From Desulfobulbaceae bacterium (GTDB taxonomy: Bacteria > Desulfobacterota > Desulfobulbia > Desulfobulbales > SURF-16), in NCBI GenBank assembly GCA_020444175.1, contig JAHLLM010000025.1:1-64000 (forward strand): a DNA stretch of 64,000 bases, in the 5' to 3' direction. The notes beneath the pieces were generated by a model. The model made no database searches, had not been told where the DNA came from, and saw nothing but the letters and a program-made list of their open reading frames with translations. Made by a program: the position numbers and the translations under genes. This document shows, in pieces, positions 8,217-46,518 of the stretch (within the stretch, counting starts at the first letter, position 1; the number at the start of each line of letters is the position of its first letter).

Positions 8217-8236
8217 GTCGCCATGGGTATGGCGAC
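8217..8236. repeat. Short palindrome, second copy
   Basis: GTCGCCAT-GGGT-ATGGCGAC, a perfect 8-bp stem followed by CTAC. It is nearly identical in layout to the palindrome at 143-162. In both places it lies near a TCATTCCCGCG-type arm, suggesting a composite repeat. Confidence 0.7.
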
Positions 8237-8296
8237 CTACACGACAATTGAAGCTTGACATGACACCAGCACGACCGGCACTCTACAACTCTTATC

Positions 8297-9382
8297 TTAG
8301 TTTTTGACAAGAAAATCCATGCAGGCATCAGTGGCAATTTTAAAATCAACTCCGCCGCTGATTTCCAGAACCGTACAATGCGACAACATTTCAAGGTAGT
8401 TGGCTGAGGAGTGATCAAGCTCATGCTCCTTTTCCTCGGGCAGAAAAAACAGGCCTGTTTCTTTCATGAATGCCGGCAGCAGATCAGGCCGTGTCGACAG
8501 ATCAACCTCACGGATAACGGTCTTCTCCTTGTTTCTCTGCCAGTTAAGGATGACAAGACCCTTCATCACGGCAAACAGATCAAAAAGTCCGGTGCCGAAT
8601 GCGTCATCTATAAAAACATCGTATTTGTGTTCCAGATCCCAGAGTTTATGGGTGGGAAGATCAGCAAAACGATTCCTGTCATCAGCAGGGATGACCCCCT
8701 GCAGATTATCATTATTAAGCGCTGTGCCTGGATTAATGCGCGGCAGTTTGGCAACGCCGTACATGGCAATATCGTGGGAGTTACTTTTTACAAGCAGCCT
8801 GTCGTTACTGACAAAACCGGTTCCCCTGCTCATAAGATGAAGAGCCAGGGTTGATTTTCCCATTCCGGAAAACCCGGCCAGGGCAAGACCGGCATCACTC
8901 CATTTGACTCCGGCCGCATGACCGAGCAGGTAACCCTGTTTTAACTTCCAGTTGATAAATCGGTTATTCACAAAATTAATGACCTGATTCGGATTTTCTA
9001 GACAGGGACCAATGGCCACATTATCCGATCCACCAAAGATAAAAACCATGCCGGTCAGACGTTTGCGAACAATACGACCATCATCAAGGTTTAAAAACTC
9101 CTCCTTAATTTTCGTTTTACCGGGATCAGGCTTTTTGATGGTGAACTCTGCTGCAAACTCGGGAACCTGCCCTTCATGGGCAGTAATCTCGATCATTGCT
9201 TTGCCGATGTCATGAGATAAAAAAGGTCGAAAATAATGATTCAGATAATCAGTAAGCTCCGTGGAATTTGTCTTAACAACAAGAGAGCAGTCGGCAAAGG
9301 CAAGACTGGTAACATGATTTGCCGGGTATTTTTCCCGCAATTGCCCTACCAGTTTTTTTCGATTGAGGGAATGATTTTTCAT
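8297..9382 (-). CDS. GAK system HprK-related kinase B
   Basis: 361 residues. A P-loop at residues 170-178 (GFSGMGKST) is followed by LALHLMSRGTGFVSNDRLLV. This resembles the nucleotide-binding core of HPr kinase/phosphorylase, where the P-loop is followed by a conserved S/D-D segment. HprK phosphorylates a serine on HPr; here no HPr gene is present and the target is unknown. The gene overlaps the upstream ATP-grasp gene by 4 bp (ATGA), which implies translational coupling and matched expression. The N-terminal 150 residues look like the family's own domain rather than the HprK N-domain. Confidence 0.85.
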   Translation of the reverse strand: MKNHSLNRKKLVGQLREKYPANHVTSLAFADCSLVVKTNSTELTDYLNHYFRPFLSHDIGKAMIEITAHEGQVPEFAAEFTIKKPDPGKTKIKEEFLNLDDGRIVRKRLTGMVFIFGGSDNVAIGPCLENPNQVINFVNNRFINWKLKQGYLLGHAAGVKWSDAGLALAGFSGMGKSTLALHLMSRGTGFVSNDRLLVKSNSHDIAMYGVAKLPRINPGTALNNDNLQGVIPADDRNRFADLPTHKLWDLEHKYDVFIDDAFGTGLFDLFAVMKGLVILNWQRNKEKTVIREVDLSTRPDLLPAFMKETGLFFLPEEKEHELDHSSANYLEMLSHCTVLEISGGVDFKIATDACMDFLVKN

Positions 9383-42467: not shown

Positions 42468-43841
42468 CTAGCTGGCCTCGTCAAATATTTCCATTAAAAC
42501 TTTATCAGACACAATCTTTTCTTCCTCTGCCACCTGTCGTATTGTCTTCCCTTGCTCATAGGCTATCTGGGAAATTGCCGCAGCCCTGTCATAACCGATA
42601 TAGGGAATAAGGCGCGTGGAAAGGGCAAGGCTCTGTTCAATATAGGAAGCGCTTTTGGAGCGATTTGCCGTAATACCCTGTATGCATTTATCAGCAAACA
42701 TACGAGAAGCTGACGCAAGAAGAGAAAGAGACTGCAGCAGATTATAACTGATTACAGGCAGCATGGTATTCAGCTCAAAACTGCCCCACTGCCCTCCCAG
42801 GGTGACGGCAGTATCATTTGCCATGATCTGGACAGCTACCTGCATGACGGATTCAGGGATAACAGGGTTGATCTTGCCAGGCATAATAGAAGAGCCGGGC
42901 TGCAGGGCAGGAATATTTATTTCTGCAAGCCCGCAACGGGGACCTGACGAAAGCCATCTGATATCATTGGCTATTTTCATGAGACTGACGGCTATTGTCT
43001 TGAGTGCGCCACTCGTCTCTACTGCACTATCCTGGGCAGCCTGGGCTTCAAAATGATTCTGCGCCTCCCTAAACGTGATCTGCGTTTCTTCACAGAGAAG
43101 ACTTATAACCCTTGGGGCAAAATCATGGTGAGCATTTATGCCGGTTCCCACTGCAGTCCCCCCAAGAGCGAGTTCGGCAAGCCTGCTCTCAAGGGACTCG
43201 ATTCTTTCTCGACCAAGTTCAATCTGCCGGGCATATCCGGAAAACTCATGGCCCAGTGTCATTGGGACGGCATCCTGAAGATGGGTCCTGCCGATCTTTT
43301 TCACATCGGCAAATTCAGCGGCTTTGTCGGCAAACGTCTGTTGAAGCTTCGTGAGGGCAGGAAGGAGGTCTTTCTTTATCAAAATCAAAGCAGCAATGTG
43401 CAGTGCCGATGGAATAACATCGTTACTCGATTGGCAGCAATTGACATGATCATTCGGATGAACCGGCTCTTTACCTGCTCTTTTTCCGGTCAATATCTCA
43501 TTTGCCCTGCAGGCAAGGACTTCATTGACGTTCATATTCGTTGAGGTGCCTGAACCCGTCTGAAACACATCCACAACAAACTGATCAGTAAATTTGCCCT
43601 CCATAGCTTCCTGGGCAGCTTGCGCTATTGCCGCCTCCATCTTCTCGTCAAGGATTCCGAGTTCGGAATTAACCCGTGCGGCACATTTCTTTATATGGGC
43701 AAGGGCGGAAATAAATGAAAAGGGCAGGGGCAGACCACTTATTGGAAAATTTTCCACAGCCCTTTGTGTTTGCGGCCCGAAGTATGAATTCCGCGGTACC
43801 AGCACCGTTCCCATGGTATCTTTTTCTTTGCGATATTCCAT
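42468..43841 (-). CDS. fumC: Class II fumarate hydratase
   Basis: 457 residues. GSSIMPGKINPVIPESVMQV is the substrate-binding loop with the catalytic Ser, RTHLQDAVPMTLGHEFSGY and SSNDVIPSALHIAAL are family motifs, and TGSGTSTNMNVNEV is the other active-site loop. It hydrates fumarate to malate. The loop P-V-I-P-E leans toward aspartase, but RTHLQDA and the SSND motif fit fumarase better. ATG at 43841 is used; TTG at 43847 is possible. Confidence 0.85.
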   Translation of the reverse strand: MEYRKEKDTMGTVLVPRNSYFGPQTQRAVENFPISGLPLPFSFISALAHIKKCAARVNSELGILDEKMEAAIAQAAQEAMEGKFTDQFVVDVFQTGSGTSTNMNVNEVLACRANEILTGKRAGKEPVHPNDHVNCCQSSNDVIPSALHIAALILIKKDLLPALTKLQQTFADKAAEFADVKKIGRTHLQDAVPMTLGHEFSGYARQIELGRERIESLESRLAELALGGTAVGTGINAHHDFAPRVISLLCEETQITFREAQNHFEAQAAQDSAVETSGALKTIAVSLMKIANDIRWLSSGPRCGLAEINIPALQPGSSIMPGKINPVIPESVMQVAVQIMANDTAVTLGGQWGSFELNTMLPVISYNLLQSLSLLASASRMFADKCIQGITANRSKSASYIEQSLALSTRLIPYIGYDRAAAISQIAYEQGKTIRQVAEEEKIVSDKVLMEIFDEAS

Positions 43842-43861
43842 TGCCAAAACCTTGTGCGCCT

Positions 43862-44761
43862 TTACGAACAGACCGTTCCCTGGGCCTGATCCTGAACATA
43901 CGGCTTACTCAGTTGAGCTGCTCTTTCAGCCCGGGCCAGCTCTCTACCGAGATAGGCGGCATGATCAAGCTGCGAAACAAGCCCCATGTCAATTATTGTC
44001 GAACAGATGCTTGACGCATCATTTCCTTCAATAACGTTCTTAAGTTTTCCGTTGTTCTGATAATGTTCAACATGCAGGAGAATATCGCCGCCAGGCCGGG
44101 GAATAATAATAAAATAGCCGTTCGGGTCCAAGCGTAATCTCCTGGCAGGATGAGCCATTACGGGTTCAACAGCTTTGGCGATAATACCTGTGCTGAAAGG
44201 ATTCTTCTTTTTAATGCCGCGAAAGAGTTCCAGCACCTCTCCAGAGTCACCTTTTCCCAGATAATTATGGAGTGTGACCTGGCGCTGCAGGTGTTCCACT
44301 TCAGGCAAAGTCGTGTTCTTTAATACTGGCCGGGCTCCCCTGGCTTTTCTTATTCGCAACGTATCAGATAAACCGTCAGACATGAGCCGGCAAAGTGCAT
44401 CTCCCGGGTAATGACCTGAAATGTCACTCCCGATAAGAACCAGATCACGGATATAAGGATTGGCATTGATATTTTTAAGAATATACTCAACGCCAATGTT
44501 TTCCGTTGTCAGCGAACCGACGATGGCGACATTGTTTTCATCAGCCAAAAAATCCGGTAGATTTGGTTCGGCAATCAGGGCAATGGCGATCTGGCCCCTG
44601 GCATTATATACCCGGAAATCTCCGGGTTGTACCGGCCACGCCTGGCTGCTGAATTTCTCATGGGAAAACTCCGAGAAACTGACCGAAGAAAGATCCTGCT
44701 CGCTCAAAGCATCAAGGGCGTCAATTCTTTCCCGGAATCTATTATATGCCGGAACCGGCAC
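43862..44761 (-). CDS. MtrA-like / DUF4346 protein (C-terminal part of candidate selenoprotein)
   Basis: 299 residues from GTG 44761, which has no ribosome binding site. SSQAWPVQPGDFRVY and VGSLTTENIGVEYILKNINANPYIRDLVLIGSDISGHYPGDAL match methyltransferase subunit A (MtrA) of methanogens. LDPNGYFIIIPRPGGDILLHVEHYQNN is the DUF4346 domain. MtrA in methanogens carries the corrinoid; here the reaction is unknown, and no methanogenesis genes are present. The upstream 78-residue ORF is in the same frame, separated only by a UGA and six sense codons (LGCSPC), so the two probably form one selenoprotein (384 residues). fumC starts 21 bp after its stop. Confidence 0.75.
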   Translation of the reverse strand: MPVPAYNRFRERIDALDALSEQDLSSVSFSEFSHEKFSSQAWPVQPGDFRVYNARGQIAIALIAEPNLPDFLADENNVAIVGSLTTENIGVEYILKNINANPYIRDLVLIGSDISGHYPGDALCRLMSDGLSDTLRIRKARGARPVLKNTTLPEVEHLQRQVTLHNYLGKGDSGEVLELFRGIKKKNPFSTGIIAKAVEPVMAHPARRLRLDPNGYFIIIPRPGGDILLHVEHYQNNGKLKNVIEGNDASSICSTIIDMGLVSQLDHAAYLGRELARAERAAQLSKPYVQDQAQGTVCS

Positions 44762-44782
44762 ACAGGGGCTGCAGCCAAGTCA
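44743..44782 (-). promoter_or_regulatory. In-frame UGA and candidate SECIS hairpin
   Basis: UGA at 44780-44782 is followed in frame by codons for LGCSPC, then the MtrA-like ORF. On the minus strand TGTGTGCCG-GTTC-CGGCATATA (44743-44764) forms a 9-bp stem with two G-U pairs and a loop starting with G. The loop lies 24 nt after UGA, within the 16-37 nt bacterial SECIS rule. Sec would give HK-U-LGCSPC, a UxxCxxC motif. Confidence 0.55.
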
Positions 44783-45016
44783 TTTGTGGAGCGTGACGGA
44801 ATTGGGGATTCGCAACCAGTCAATGAAATCCTCTTCCACATTAAGGAGGCTGCTGTCATTCCATGATTGCCTGAACTCCTGCAATTCATGGAGAATTTTT
44901 GACATCATATCTTCAAAAAGACAGGAACAGGTTCGACACTTTTCCTTTTGCAAAATTTCAGCAAATTCATGATGGACTTCCCGAAATATTTGTCTCTTTT
45001 CTTGCCTTAAGCCCAT
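44780..45016 (-). CDS. Cys-rich short ORF, likely N-terminal part of the candidate selenoprotein
   Basis: 78 codons ending in UGA. It has an early KCRTCSCLFEDMMSKILHEL motif (C-x2-C-x-C) in a helical context, then WLRIPNSVTLHK before the UGA. Read as a separate gene it is an unrecognised small protein. Read through, it is continuous with the MtrA/DUF4346 ORF at 43862-44761. GAAGTGA lies about 10 bases before the ATG, and it starts 7 bp after the small lipoprotein gene. Confidence 0.55.
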   Translation of the reverse strand: MGLRQEKRQIFREVHHEFAEILQKEKCRTCSCLFEDMMSKILHELQEFRQSWNDSSLLNVEEDFIDWLRIPNSVTLHK

Positions 45017-45023
45017 TCGCCGT

Positions 45024-45251
45024 TCACTTCCTGTTCTTTTCTTCGACTATGCGTCTGATTTCTTCCAGGCGTATTCGTGATTTTGCGGCCAGCTCACTTT
45101 TCGGATATTTATTGATGATCTCCTGGTAGAGTGAAGTGGCGTGGGGGTAATTTCTCTGCAAGAGCTCAAGTTCTGCTGTTTCAAACAGCTCGCGAGGCCC
45201 AGATCCACAGGAAATGAGCAGCACAAAGATAAGGATGAGAATTTTTTTCAT
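45024..45251 (-). CDS. Small TPR-like lipoprotein
   Basis: 75 residues from ATG 45251. It has a lipoprotein signal peptide (MKKILILIFVLLISC, Cys at 15) and one helix-turn-helix TPR-like pair (LFETAELELLQRNYPHATSL then IINKYPKSELAAKSRIRLEE). It resembles the start of BamD-type outer-membrane lipoproteins but is far too short, so its role is unknown. AAGGAAC precedes the ATG. It may be cotranscribed with the candidate selenoprotein gene that follows it. Confidence 0.65.
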   Translation of the reverse strand: MKKILILIFVLLISCGSGPRELFETAELELLQRNYPHATSLYQEIINKYPKSELAAKSRIRLEEIRRIVEEKNRK

Positions 45252-45348
45252 AATGATTGTTCCTTGCCTCGGATTTTTACAATGCCTCGTCGTGCTCACA
45301 GCAATATTTACCTGAAAAGCAGCAAACCGGCAAGAGAATGATTACCAG

Positions 45349-45400
45349 TATCTATTCAGCGAGGGCTCGAAATGGGCCTCAACTCCAGGCCGTAACTATT
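45349..45400. repeat. Dispersed repeat copy B
   Basis: TATCTATTCAGCGAGGG...GCCGTAACTATT, near-identical to copy A but without the TCAGATGTGCC end. The TAG stop of the lipoprotein gene (45396-45398) lies inside it. Confidence 0.85.
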
Positions 45401-45848
45401 GATTAAGCTGTTCAATGGCGCTGACCATTCCATCGATAAATTCAACACGGGCTGCAGTGTATTCCTCTTCTGTATCCTTATCGATCCAAACACTCCGATA
45501 ACGGATAACCGTCTTTCCGGAACGGGTGCTTTCACGCACAGGGACACTCATTCGTTCGGTTTCCGTGCGAATTCTTTTCCTGGTGTATGCCCAGACCTTT
45601 GCCACTCCATCATCCGTTATTCTGGTGTATGTTCTATCCGCCCTGCCCCAGGCTATGAGAACCATATCCTGATTAAAACCAATGTCTATCTGGCCCTGGC
45701 GAACCTTTTGCTGTATTTCAGGACTGAATGAATCAAAGGTATCCTGGAAACTGGCAATCCTTCTCTCTCTGAAATACTGGGGAGACATACAGCCGGCAAG
45801 AATAAAAATAATGACAAGTACAACAAGGAAGTTCAGTCGATTCAGCAT
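45396..45848 (-). CDS. Lipoprotein of unknown function
   Basis: 150 residues from ATG 45848 with AAGGAGACGG upstream. Signal peptide with lipobox LAGC (Cys at about 19), then a helix and a beta-rich C-terminal part (VWAYTRKRIRTETERMSVPV, RSVWIDKDTEEEYTAARVEF). GFNQDMVLIAWGRADRTY resembles the SmpA/OmlA-type BamE fold, where the G-R-A-D segment is common; this is a weak match. Its 3' end and stop codon lie in dispersed repeat copy B, so the repeat may have replaced the original end. Confidence 0.65.
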   Translation of the reverse strand: MLNRLNFLVVLVIIFILAGCMSPQYFRERRIASFQDTFDSFSPEIQQKVRQGQIDIGFNQDMVLIAWGRADRTYTRITDDGVAKVWAYTRKRIRTETERMSVPVRESTRSGKTVIRYRSVWIDKDTEEEYTAARVEFIDGMVSAIEQLNQ

Positions 45849-45894
45849 AGCCGTCTCCTTGAAAAAAATGACCAGCACCCTGAACGAAACGGTA

Positions 45895-46518
45895 TTACCG
45901 TACCAATGTGCCGGATAAACGCAACCCGTCAAGCAGCAGTTTTGCGGCCAGCCCCCAGAGAAGAAGCCCCAGAATACGCATAATAAATACGTATATCCTG
46001 CCGCTCATGAAGGAACGACACCTGCCGACAAGAATGGCCAATAAAATCTTGCTGCCGACAAGGAGAATATAGAAACTGCCGATAAAAGCAACTGGTGCAA
46101 GCAGATCTGATTTTGAGGCCTGAGTCACAGCTGGTCCCCCGACAGTGAGCCAGAACAGATAGGGATGAGGGCTCAAAAAATTAACCAAAACCCCTTTCCG
46201 GAGCGAAGTGGCCTCAAGCCTCGGCTCTCGGACATCGGGTCTGCCTTTCCGCAAAGTTTCCCAGCCAAGATAAAAAACAAAAAAACTTCCCACACAGGAA
46301 AGAAAAGCCAATATGGAATGAAAATGGGCAAGCTTTGCCAGGACCAAAAGGGTCAGAACGATAATAGGCGCATCGGTTACGACCGGTGCCAGGGCGACCC
46401 TGACTCCTGACTTTATATCATGCTGCATAGTTTCGGATATGACAAGGGTCAAAAGCGGACCCGGGGCAAATCCTGCCGAAAGCCCAAGGACAATTCCCAT
46501 GAAGAGATACTGAAGCAT
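45895..46518 (-). CDS. LysE/RhtB family exporter
   Basis: 207 residues with about six hydrophobic helices. The N-terminal FAPGPLLTLVISETMQHDIKSGVRVALAP is the family signature, and NFLSPHPYLFWLTVGGP the second. It exports an amino acid or similar metabolite across the inner membrane. Its start follows OMPLA's stop by 18 bp. The next gene downstream, the lipoprotein, begins 46 bp later. Confidence 0.9.
   Translation of the reverse strand: MLQYLFMGIVLGLSAGFAPGPLLTLVISETMQHDIKSGVRVALAPVVTDAPIIVLTLLVLAKLAHFHSILAFLSCVGSFFVFYLGWETLRKGRPDVREPRLEATSLRKGVLVNFLSPHPYLFWLTVGGPAVTQASKSDLLAPVAFIGSFYILLVGSKILLAILVGRCRSFMSGRIYVFIMRILGLLLWGLAAKLLLDGLRLSGTLVR

Follow-up and report, generated by a model that had tools for sequence, protein, structure and literature searches.

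A predicted selenocysteine-containing MtrA-type corrinoid protein and its cysteine homologues in bacteria

Does a UGA codon end a small gene here, or is it read as selenocysteine (Sec) within a longer one? The locus lies in positions 1 to 64,000 of contig JAHLLM010000025.1 from a Desulfobulbaceae bacterium (assembly GCA_020444175.1); this whole stretch of 64,000 nucleotides is called the window below. On its minus strand, a 78-codon open reading frame (ORF, 44780-45016) is followed in the same frame by an ORF resembling MtrA, the corrinoid subunit of methyl-tetrahydromethanopterin (H4MPT):coenzyme M methyltransferase. If the TGA between them is read as a residue, the two become a single ORF, 43862-45016, as a first-pass annotation of the DNA had pointed out. 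Its interpretation of the feature as one gene, not two, is supported by the present sequence comparison. Overall, we put the probability that the locus is a single gene for a Sec-containing MtrA-type corrinoid protein at about 0.85.

One gene across an in-frame UGA

The 384-codon frame is interrupted only once, by the UGA at codon 79. Reading this codon as Sec gives U79-L-G-C82-S-P-C85, which is the UxxCxxC motif claimed in the first-pass annotation. The protein is conserved on both sides of the UGA: relative to four homologues from the same order, identity is 31-40% before it and 45-47% after it. The match to the NCBIfam model NF002128 runs as one stretch over residues 11-381 (255.5 bits; the cut-off of 568 is not reached).

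Seven homologues also have UGA at codon 79, four of them in the window's order and three in the order of Sedimentibacter (Firmicutes). The gene was found in 5 of 58 nearby relatives and in 5 of 257 genomes of the class. These are the same five genomes, the window's own included; each of the five genes contains exactly one internal TGA, and the other four proteins are 43-45% identical to the window protein. Sedimentibacter saalensis DSM 13558 (L129) has UGA at the same codon, in the context YT-U-IGCNPC. Matches were obtained in 5 of 249 genomes of its order, and all three that reach the codon have TGA.

Other members of the family carry Cys at this position. In a sample of the phylum, 49 of 395 genomes gave some match, many of them covering a single domain only, and the eight loci that reach the motif over most of their length (L006-L013) all have Cys. 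A named collection searched with an alignment as query yielded 80 loci among 558 relatives, a number that is a lower bound for the family size; 77 of the 79 loci other than L129 carry Cys at codon 79. L108 and L120 have no motif in the frame of their best match and are excluded from the Cys counts. Together with L006-L013, these 77 loci form a Cys set of 85 loci, or 82 distinct genes, from many phyla (L073 = L009, L087 = L011 and L109 = L012, with zero branch lengths in the tree). Cys homologues reading C-LGCxPC and continuous with the MtrA domain, which the first-pass annotation had proposed to look for, are thus present at 85 loci. None of them splits the two parts into genes of their own with ordinary stops and without the Cys, L108 and L120 being unscored in this respect. 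A contig scan with a single protein had returned 124 stretches and no relative, and the alignment query was used afterwards. The Sedimentibacter protein, compared with a class-wide draw of 391 genomes, returned only the Sedimentibacter genome itself. In a tree of 86 proteins, from which L137 was left out, the Sec rows fall into two clades that lie apart from each other, and strongly supported branches require a minimum of two changes between Cys and Sec.

The locus could also be described as two genes, namely a 78-residue protein with a normal UGA stop and an MtrA/DUF4346 protein starting from the GTG at 44761. There are two points consistent with this description. First, a GTG is present as codon 7 after the UGA in both the window gene and its homologue L003. 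Second, the gene just upstream, encoding a BamD-like lipoprotein, uses UGA as its ordinary stop codon, and therefore this genome does not simply translate UGA as an amino acid. However, the same codon is UGA in eight genes, and the Cys homologues at 85 loci are fused. Comparison of the window gene with its homologues revealed no conserved start codon within 20 codons after the UGA. As the first-pass annotation had stated, the GTG lacks a ribosome binding site, its preceding letters, CTTGGCTGCAGCCCCTGT, containing no Shine-Dalgarno-like run. An AGGAAG is found upstream of the ATG at 45016, its end 10 nt from the start codon. An independent start at the GTG (44759-44761, minus strand), which would also discard the invariant UxxCxxC motif, was therefore rejected, and the two-gene description appears very improbable.

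Even less probable is an origin of the UGA by pseudogene decay or sequencing error. It is true that TGA is only one base away from the Cys codons TGC and TGT. However, the TGA occupies the same codon in eight genes of two lineages, and neither the window gene nor L002-L005, L129 and L136 contain any other stop (L137 lies at a contig end and is only a fragment). Moreover, a hairpin follows the UGA in seven of the eight Sec genes. We conclude that the locus is almost certainly one gene, predicted to start at the ATG at 45016, to have the UGA at 44780-44782 read as Sec and to end at 43862.

A separate case is an in-frame TGA inside the MtrA domain (NLS-U-EQ) of L082 (6565-6567), from a Thermoanaerobaculum metagenome-assembled genome (MAG), which is probably an error or a sign of a decaying gene.

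Selenocysteine machinery and a SECIS-like hairpin

The window's genome encodes a tRNA-Sec (67.2 bits, cut-off 47) and SelB (367.8 bits, cut-off 242.25), and a tRNA-Sec is also present in S. saalensis DSM 13558. A stem-loop resembling the bacterial selenocysteine insertion sequence (SECIS) lies downstream of the UGA, with the stem, loop and spacing that the first-pass annotation had described (Table 1). A hairpin of bacterial SECIS geometry was scored by a G in the first two loop bases, GU in the first four, and a distance of 14-32 nt past the codon. Such a hairpin is found in 7 of 8 Sec genes and at 3 of 85 Cys loci (Fisher P 1e-7), or in 7 of 8 and at 14 of 85 when the GU condition is dropped (P 8e-5). 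These P values are optimistic, as the rule was set with the sequences already in view and follows in part the general features of bacterial SECIS elements; they are also uncorrected for relatedness. During translation, the ribosome would start at the ATG at 45016, decode the UGA with SelB, tRNA-Sec and the downstream hairpin, and terminate at 43862.

Some observations do not favor this reading of the codon. SelB and tRNA-Sec score above cut-off in all 14 genomes tested, whether these carry the Sec, the Cys or a truncated form; nine of them have Cys or truncated forms, and the machinery is therefore necessary but not discriminating. The Sec gene L002 lacks a 4-bp SECIS stem. When folding energies are compared with synonymous resampling, the window gene alone has a low value (P 0.027); L003 is borderline (P 0.069), and the other six Sec genes are not significant. 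Furthermore, the eight Sec genes represent two lineages, so that counts based on them are not independent. A scan of the window against Rfam gave 0 matches at gathering scores and was thus of no use for judging the SECIS.

A corrinoid domain behind a cysteine-rich domain

The middle part of the protein is an MtrA corrinoid-binding domain (PF04208, Table 1). Its profile matches in the PDB are 5laa, 5l8x, 8q3v and 9qtq, and its comparison with 9qtr gave a VIA-align Z of 23.7 and a root-mean-square deviation of 1.5 over 154 aligned residues. In MtrA, as described in PMC4915002, His84 is the cobalt ligand and Glu54 its partner. The spacing between Glu172 and His202 of the window protein, 30 residues, is the same as that between Glu54 and His84, and the cobalt-ligand His, its Glu partner and the neighbouring glycines are invariant in 61 rows. 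The middle domain very probably holds cobalamin, with the cobalt bound from below by His202. The first-pass annotation had suggested that the protein binds a metal or a corrinoid. The corrinoid part of this suggestion is well supported by homology, whereas the metal part comes only from gene context and from the cysteines.

Three separate bacterial MtrA-domain proteins (L017, L018 and L019) end in the stretch LPGTNC..CGEKTCRAFASKL. We take this end to resemble the 4Fe-4S domain of corrinoid iron-sulfur proteins.

Residues 1-107 are predicted by AlphaFold2 to form a helical bundle (mean predicted local distance difference test score 90.0). Besides the motif containing the UGA, residues 27-32 of this domain form another invariant motif, CxxCxC, which is absent from the first-pass annotation. 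Residues C27, C30, C32, 79, G81, C82 and C85 are all invariant in 56 rows. No significant fold match to the domain was found in the PDB; the best Foldseek E-value of 3.5 and the best VIA-align Z of 5.8 are below a meaningful level for helical bundles. In profile comparison with the PDB, two designed helical proteins come first (E 0.0011 and 0.0044), followed by the 4Fe-4S protein PsaC from 0.012. Among the Pfam matches, Fer4_21 is found in 4 of 56 members with E up to 0.1; this match, EPF and similar ones are weak and were not adopted.

These motifs might be explained by an iron-sulfur (Fe-S) cluster that re-reduces cob(II)alamin. The protein would then carry methyl groups for one-carbon metabolism on a corrinoid that it reactivates itself; Sec would act as a redox partner or ligand, and there would be no site for a metal substrate. 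The six invariant Cys/Sec residues at helix ends of a helical bundle are consistent with such a cluster, as are the weak CxGCxxC profile likeness to PsaC (E at least 0.012) and Fer4_21, and the presence of metF 2.5-2.7 kb upstream in L142 and L143 (genomes G033 and G043). On the other hand, the similarities are at noise level, with two designed proteins outranking PsaC, and the fold search gave no ferredoxin-like match. The Fe-S explanation also leaves the ArsR, MerC and heavy-metal pump genes beside Cys forms (see below) unaccounted for. We regard it as possible, and as only slightly less probable than the methyl transfer proposed below.

Table 1. Coordinates of the gene, its parts and related features (window positions unless a locus is named)
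Feature	Position	Strand	Basis or remark
Complete coding sequence (384 residues + stop) of the predicted selenoprotein	43862..45016	-	ATG at 45016; ORF reading and continuous homologues
In-frame UGA, residue 79, predicted Sec	44780..44782	-	homologues reaching this codon have Cys or UGA
UxxCxxC motif, residues 79-85	44762..44782	-	homologue alignment; Cys homologues read C[LIFYVR]GCxxC
SECIS-like stem-loop	44743..44764	-	9-bp stem (2 G-U), loop GTTC, 24 nt from UGA to loop
N-terminal Cys-rich helical domain, residues 1-108	44693..45016	-	AlphaFold2
CxxCxC motif, residues 27-32	44921..44938	-	all three Cys invariant in aligned rows
MtrA corrinoid-binding domain (PF04208), residues 123-273	44198..44650	-	91.6 bits, cut-off 25
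His202, corresponding to the MtrA cobalt ligand His84	44411..44413	-	invariant; Glu172 = Glu54
C-terminal DUF4346 (PF14251), residues 296-376	43889..44131	-	79 bits, cut-off 29.6
Small BamD-like lipoprotein gene, upstream	45024..45299	-	stop 7 nt from ATG 45016
Class II fumarase/aspartase-type lyase gene, immediately downstream	42468..43847	-	
ArsM-like gene with TGA (SWSH-U-[IV]GGT)	L141 9907-10650	-	SECIS-like hairpin present
ArsM-like gene with TGA (SWSH-U-[IV]GGT)	L144 8624-9379		SECIS-like hairpin present

A cysteine in the linker of Cys forms

A linker leads from the C/UxGCxxC motif to the MtrA domain, whose start reads WP..GxY. It contains at least one Cys in 75 of the 77 parsed Cys forms (74 of them distinct) and in none of the 8 Sec forms. 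This count omits L093 and L099, in which the segment is unparsable, and loci without a clean frame (72 of 80 passed). The linker Cys is mostly found 9 or 11 residues before WP..GxY; the two Cys forms without it are L094 and L095. Because both Sec lineages lack the linker Cys, Cys79 and the linker Cys may constitute a pair replaceable by the single Sec79; two such events are few, and we give the idea even odds.

L072 (8328-8330; DYEO01000021.1), from a Dethiobacter MAG, is a Cys form with an in-frame TGA in the linker, reading CDCGGT-U-GTK. Past this TGA there is a 6-bp hairpin (loop GGA, 20 nt between TGA and loop), and the genome has a tRNA-Sec. Possibly Sec is used here at the other partner of the Cys pair, or this one metagenome sequence contains an error.

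Gene neighbourhoods of Cys and Sec forms

The neighbourhoods of 72 Cys-form loci were compared, with genes predicted by a simple gene caller. Of the 254 genes within 1.2 kb, 22 are ArsR-like (spread over 22 of the 72 loci), compared with 8 of the 402 genes beyond 3 kb (P 9e-5). The nearer zone also holds 11 DsbD-like membrane genes and 10 CGC-type thioredoxin-like genes, and neither kind is found in the farther one. In a Pfam tally of 138 of 161 neighbour genes, 20 belong to the ArsR family and 10 to DsbD; the 23 neighbours left out comprise 22 from 11 loci with a ParA/ParB-like pair and one at a contig edge. A MerC-type gene lies just upstream in L061, and L067 holds a homologue of it.

Planococcus plasmid pA30H1 has the order ArsR/SmtB regulator, cation transporter, heavy-metal P-type ATPase, DUF4346 gene. 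The proteins of pA30H1 and of a P. kocurii plasmid contain CxxCxC and read HNCLGCEVC at the Sec position; their linker is full of CGC repeats and looks metallothionein-like by eye. The Planococcus plasmid proteins equal, again by eye, protein L114 of Paenibacillus naphthalenovorans, which suggests that the Cys-form gene moves between genera. The small Planococcus plasmids carrying a Cys-form DUF4346 gene are NZ_MN657150.1 (L163), NZ_CP013660.2 (L164) and NZ_MN657143.1. An ISL3 transposase gene follows the DUF4346 gene in the first two.

Genes resembling the arsenite methyltransferase ArsM, with an in-frame UGA of their own, are found near both forms. In genome G524, the minus strand reads ArsR-type gene, Cys-form MtrA gene, two small genes, ArsR-type gene, VTT membrane protein gene and ArsM-like gene with UGA, the last at a distance of about 3 kb from the Cys-form gene. 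In G006 and G007, such a gene lies directly upstream of the Sec form. The models nearest to the two ArsM-like genes at L141 and L144, both directly upstream of a Sec MtrA gene, are the known ArsM selenoprotein families, with scores below their cut-offs, and the two may represent a separate subfamily. The window's genome also contains an ArsM-like gene with one in-frame TGA (G000:C6:55929-56672, L161), 51% identical to that of G007.

A possible role in metal(loid) methyl chemistry

Taken together, the parts of the protein point to the following model. The N-terminal domain would gather C27, C30, C32, U79, C82 and C85 beside the corrinoid; the order of the parts is shown, and their geometry is inferred. 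Placed over the cobalt, this Cys/Sec cluster might bind a metal(loid) substrate or an Fe-S cluster. If the former, the site would bind an organometal or the ion of a soft metal or metalloid, and methyl transfer would take place between this substrate and the cobalt, in either direction, in the service of metal(loid) detoxification. We tentatively favor such methyl transfer over Fe-S reactivation and plain binding, because the Cys forms adjoin metal-responsive regulators, some transporters and, nearby, one metalloid-type methyltransferase; it is nevertheless only one possible reading of the data. Still more tentative is the specific version of it, a corrinoid enzyme that moves methyl groups to or from a toxic metal(loid) with Sec, brought beside the cobalt by the helical Cys-rich domain of unrecognised fold, taking the place of the Cys79/linker-Cys pair. 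If true, this would be a further kind of metal(loid) methyl chemistry beside those of ArsM, which uses S-adenosylmethionine (SAM), and the corrinoid system HgcAB. Its Cys form would occur in many bacterial phyla and on small plasmids with heavy-metal pumps, with conversion to selenium at least two times.

Several results speak against the proposed methyl transfer. The metal pumps encoded next to some Cys forms are equally compatible with simple metal binding. Clusters of heavy-metal P-type ATPases, RND pumps (CusA, CzcB, CzcC) and MerR are not enriched near Cys forms relative to far positions. Among the 25 of 128 neighbour families listed there is no MtrH-like partner, although no search was aimed at MtrH. 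The neighbours of the window gene are a fumarase gene and two small lipoprotein genes, with no metal genes, and the ArsM-like UGA gene of the same genome is on another contig, unlinked to the MtrA gene. Finally, an ArsM-like match is absent (E 1e-15) in 4 of 16 genomes, including all three of the Sedimentibacter order.

Plain binding would make the protein a metal sensor, chaperone or sponge, the corrinoid domain being structural or sensing only and no methyl group being transferred. The ArsR neighbourhoods and the pump operon are in line with this, and so are the conserved cysteines of the Cys forms and the Cys-rich CGC-repeat linker of the Planococcus plasmid proteins. However, the invariant cobalt-ligand His, Glu and glycines suggest a working corrinoid, and the ArsM-like neighbours indicate methyl chemistry. 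A binding-only protein is thus unlikely.

Relation to known systems and novelty

MtrA (PF04208) and its soluble homologues share the domain, the fold and the corrinoid ligands with the window protein, which would likewise serve as a corrinoid carrier. In contrast to MtrA, the window protein has a Cys/Sec-rich domain in front, and it falls below the MtrA equivalog cut-offs (TIGR01111, 84.1 bits versus 249.15). It also carries DUF4346 at the C-terminus, where MtrA has its C-terminal anchor according to PMC4915002. The only listed model spanning residues 11-381 is NF002128 (PRK00964.1-6; 390 positions; 'tetrahydromethanopterin S-methyltransferase subunit A'), and its group is probably the nearest described one. 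However, its name implies an Mtr function, which is at odds with the genes found around the Cys forms. Annotation currently names the family after a methanogenesis enzyme; these neighbouring genes suggest that such a label misleads and that all or part of the family serves to handle heavy metals or arsenic.

Arsenite methyltransferases of the ArsM type have a SAM-dependent methyltransferase fold and no corrinoid. Like the present family, they include Sec forms (NF041536, NF041537, NF047649, NF008823), but the ArsM-like neighbours of Sec MtrA genes score below the cut-offs of these models. HgcA, of mercury methylation, is likewise a corrinoid protein with predicted Sec forms and is tied to metal methylation. 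Its Sec forms have a CU motif (NF040863) and are of the CO dehydrogenase/acetyl-CoA synthase gamma type (PMC13188914, Table 1); the window protein differs in motif and type, a distinction drawn from the descriptions only.

No MtrA or DUF4346 entry is present among the 119 families and subfamilies in Table 1 of the 2026 selenoprotein inventory (PMC13188914). An MtrA-type selenoprotein is also not named in the available parts of PMC12013277, PMC9312934, PMC8318568, PMC11291895, PMC9723677, PMC7435645 and PMC10418091. Among the matches listed by text searches, some of these listings covering a part of the matches, no title or abstract names one, and DUF4346, PF14251 and PterinBD occur in none of the papers searched. 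NCBIfam (June 2026) returned no selenoprotein model for the window protein. The remark in the first-pass annotation that the protein may be new therefore holds for the inventory table and the literature matches, two papers by Haft and colleagues excepted. An MtrA-type selenoprotein is likely new within this survey, which excludes those two papers and the supplementary tables of PMC8318568, where further predicted selenoproteins of marine deltaproteobacteria are given.

With this predicted protein, an MtrA-type family would join the selenoproteins, and a gene that the standard code splits at UGA is now read whole. The use of Sec at one and the same site by two distant lineages would point to a chemically important role of residue 79 within a large corrinoid family. 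The Sec form in S. saalensis DSM 13558 and the Cys form on small Planococcus plasmids make the idea directly testable.

Other neighbouring genes

The lipoprotein encoded upstream at 45396-45932 (minus strand) of the window has no Pfam or NCBIfam match. By eye, a lipoprotein of the same kind is encoded downstream of the Sec MtrA gene in G006 (L141, region 8224-8651, minus strand). A strongly conserved and different context is found at 11 loci (L106, L107, L111, L113, L118, L119, L121, L123, L127, L130 and L131), where the Cys-form gene lies directly before a ParA/ParB-like pair, recognised by eye; 6 of these 11 loci are titled Nitrospirae or Nitrospiraceae.

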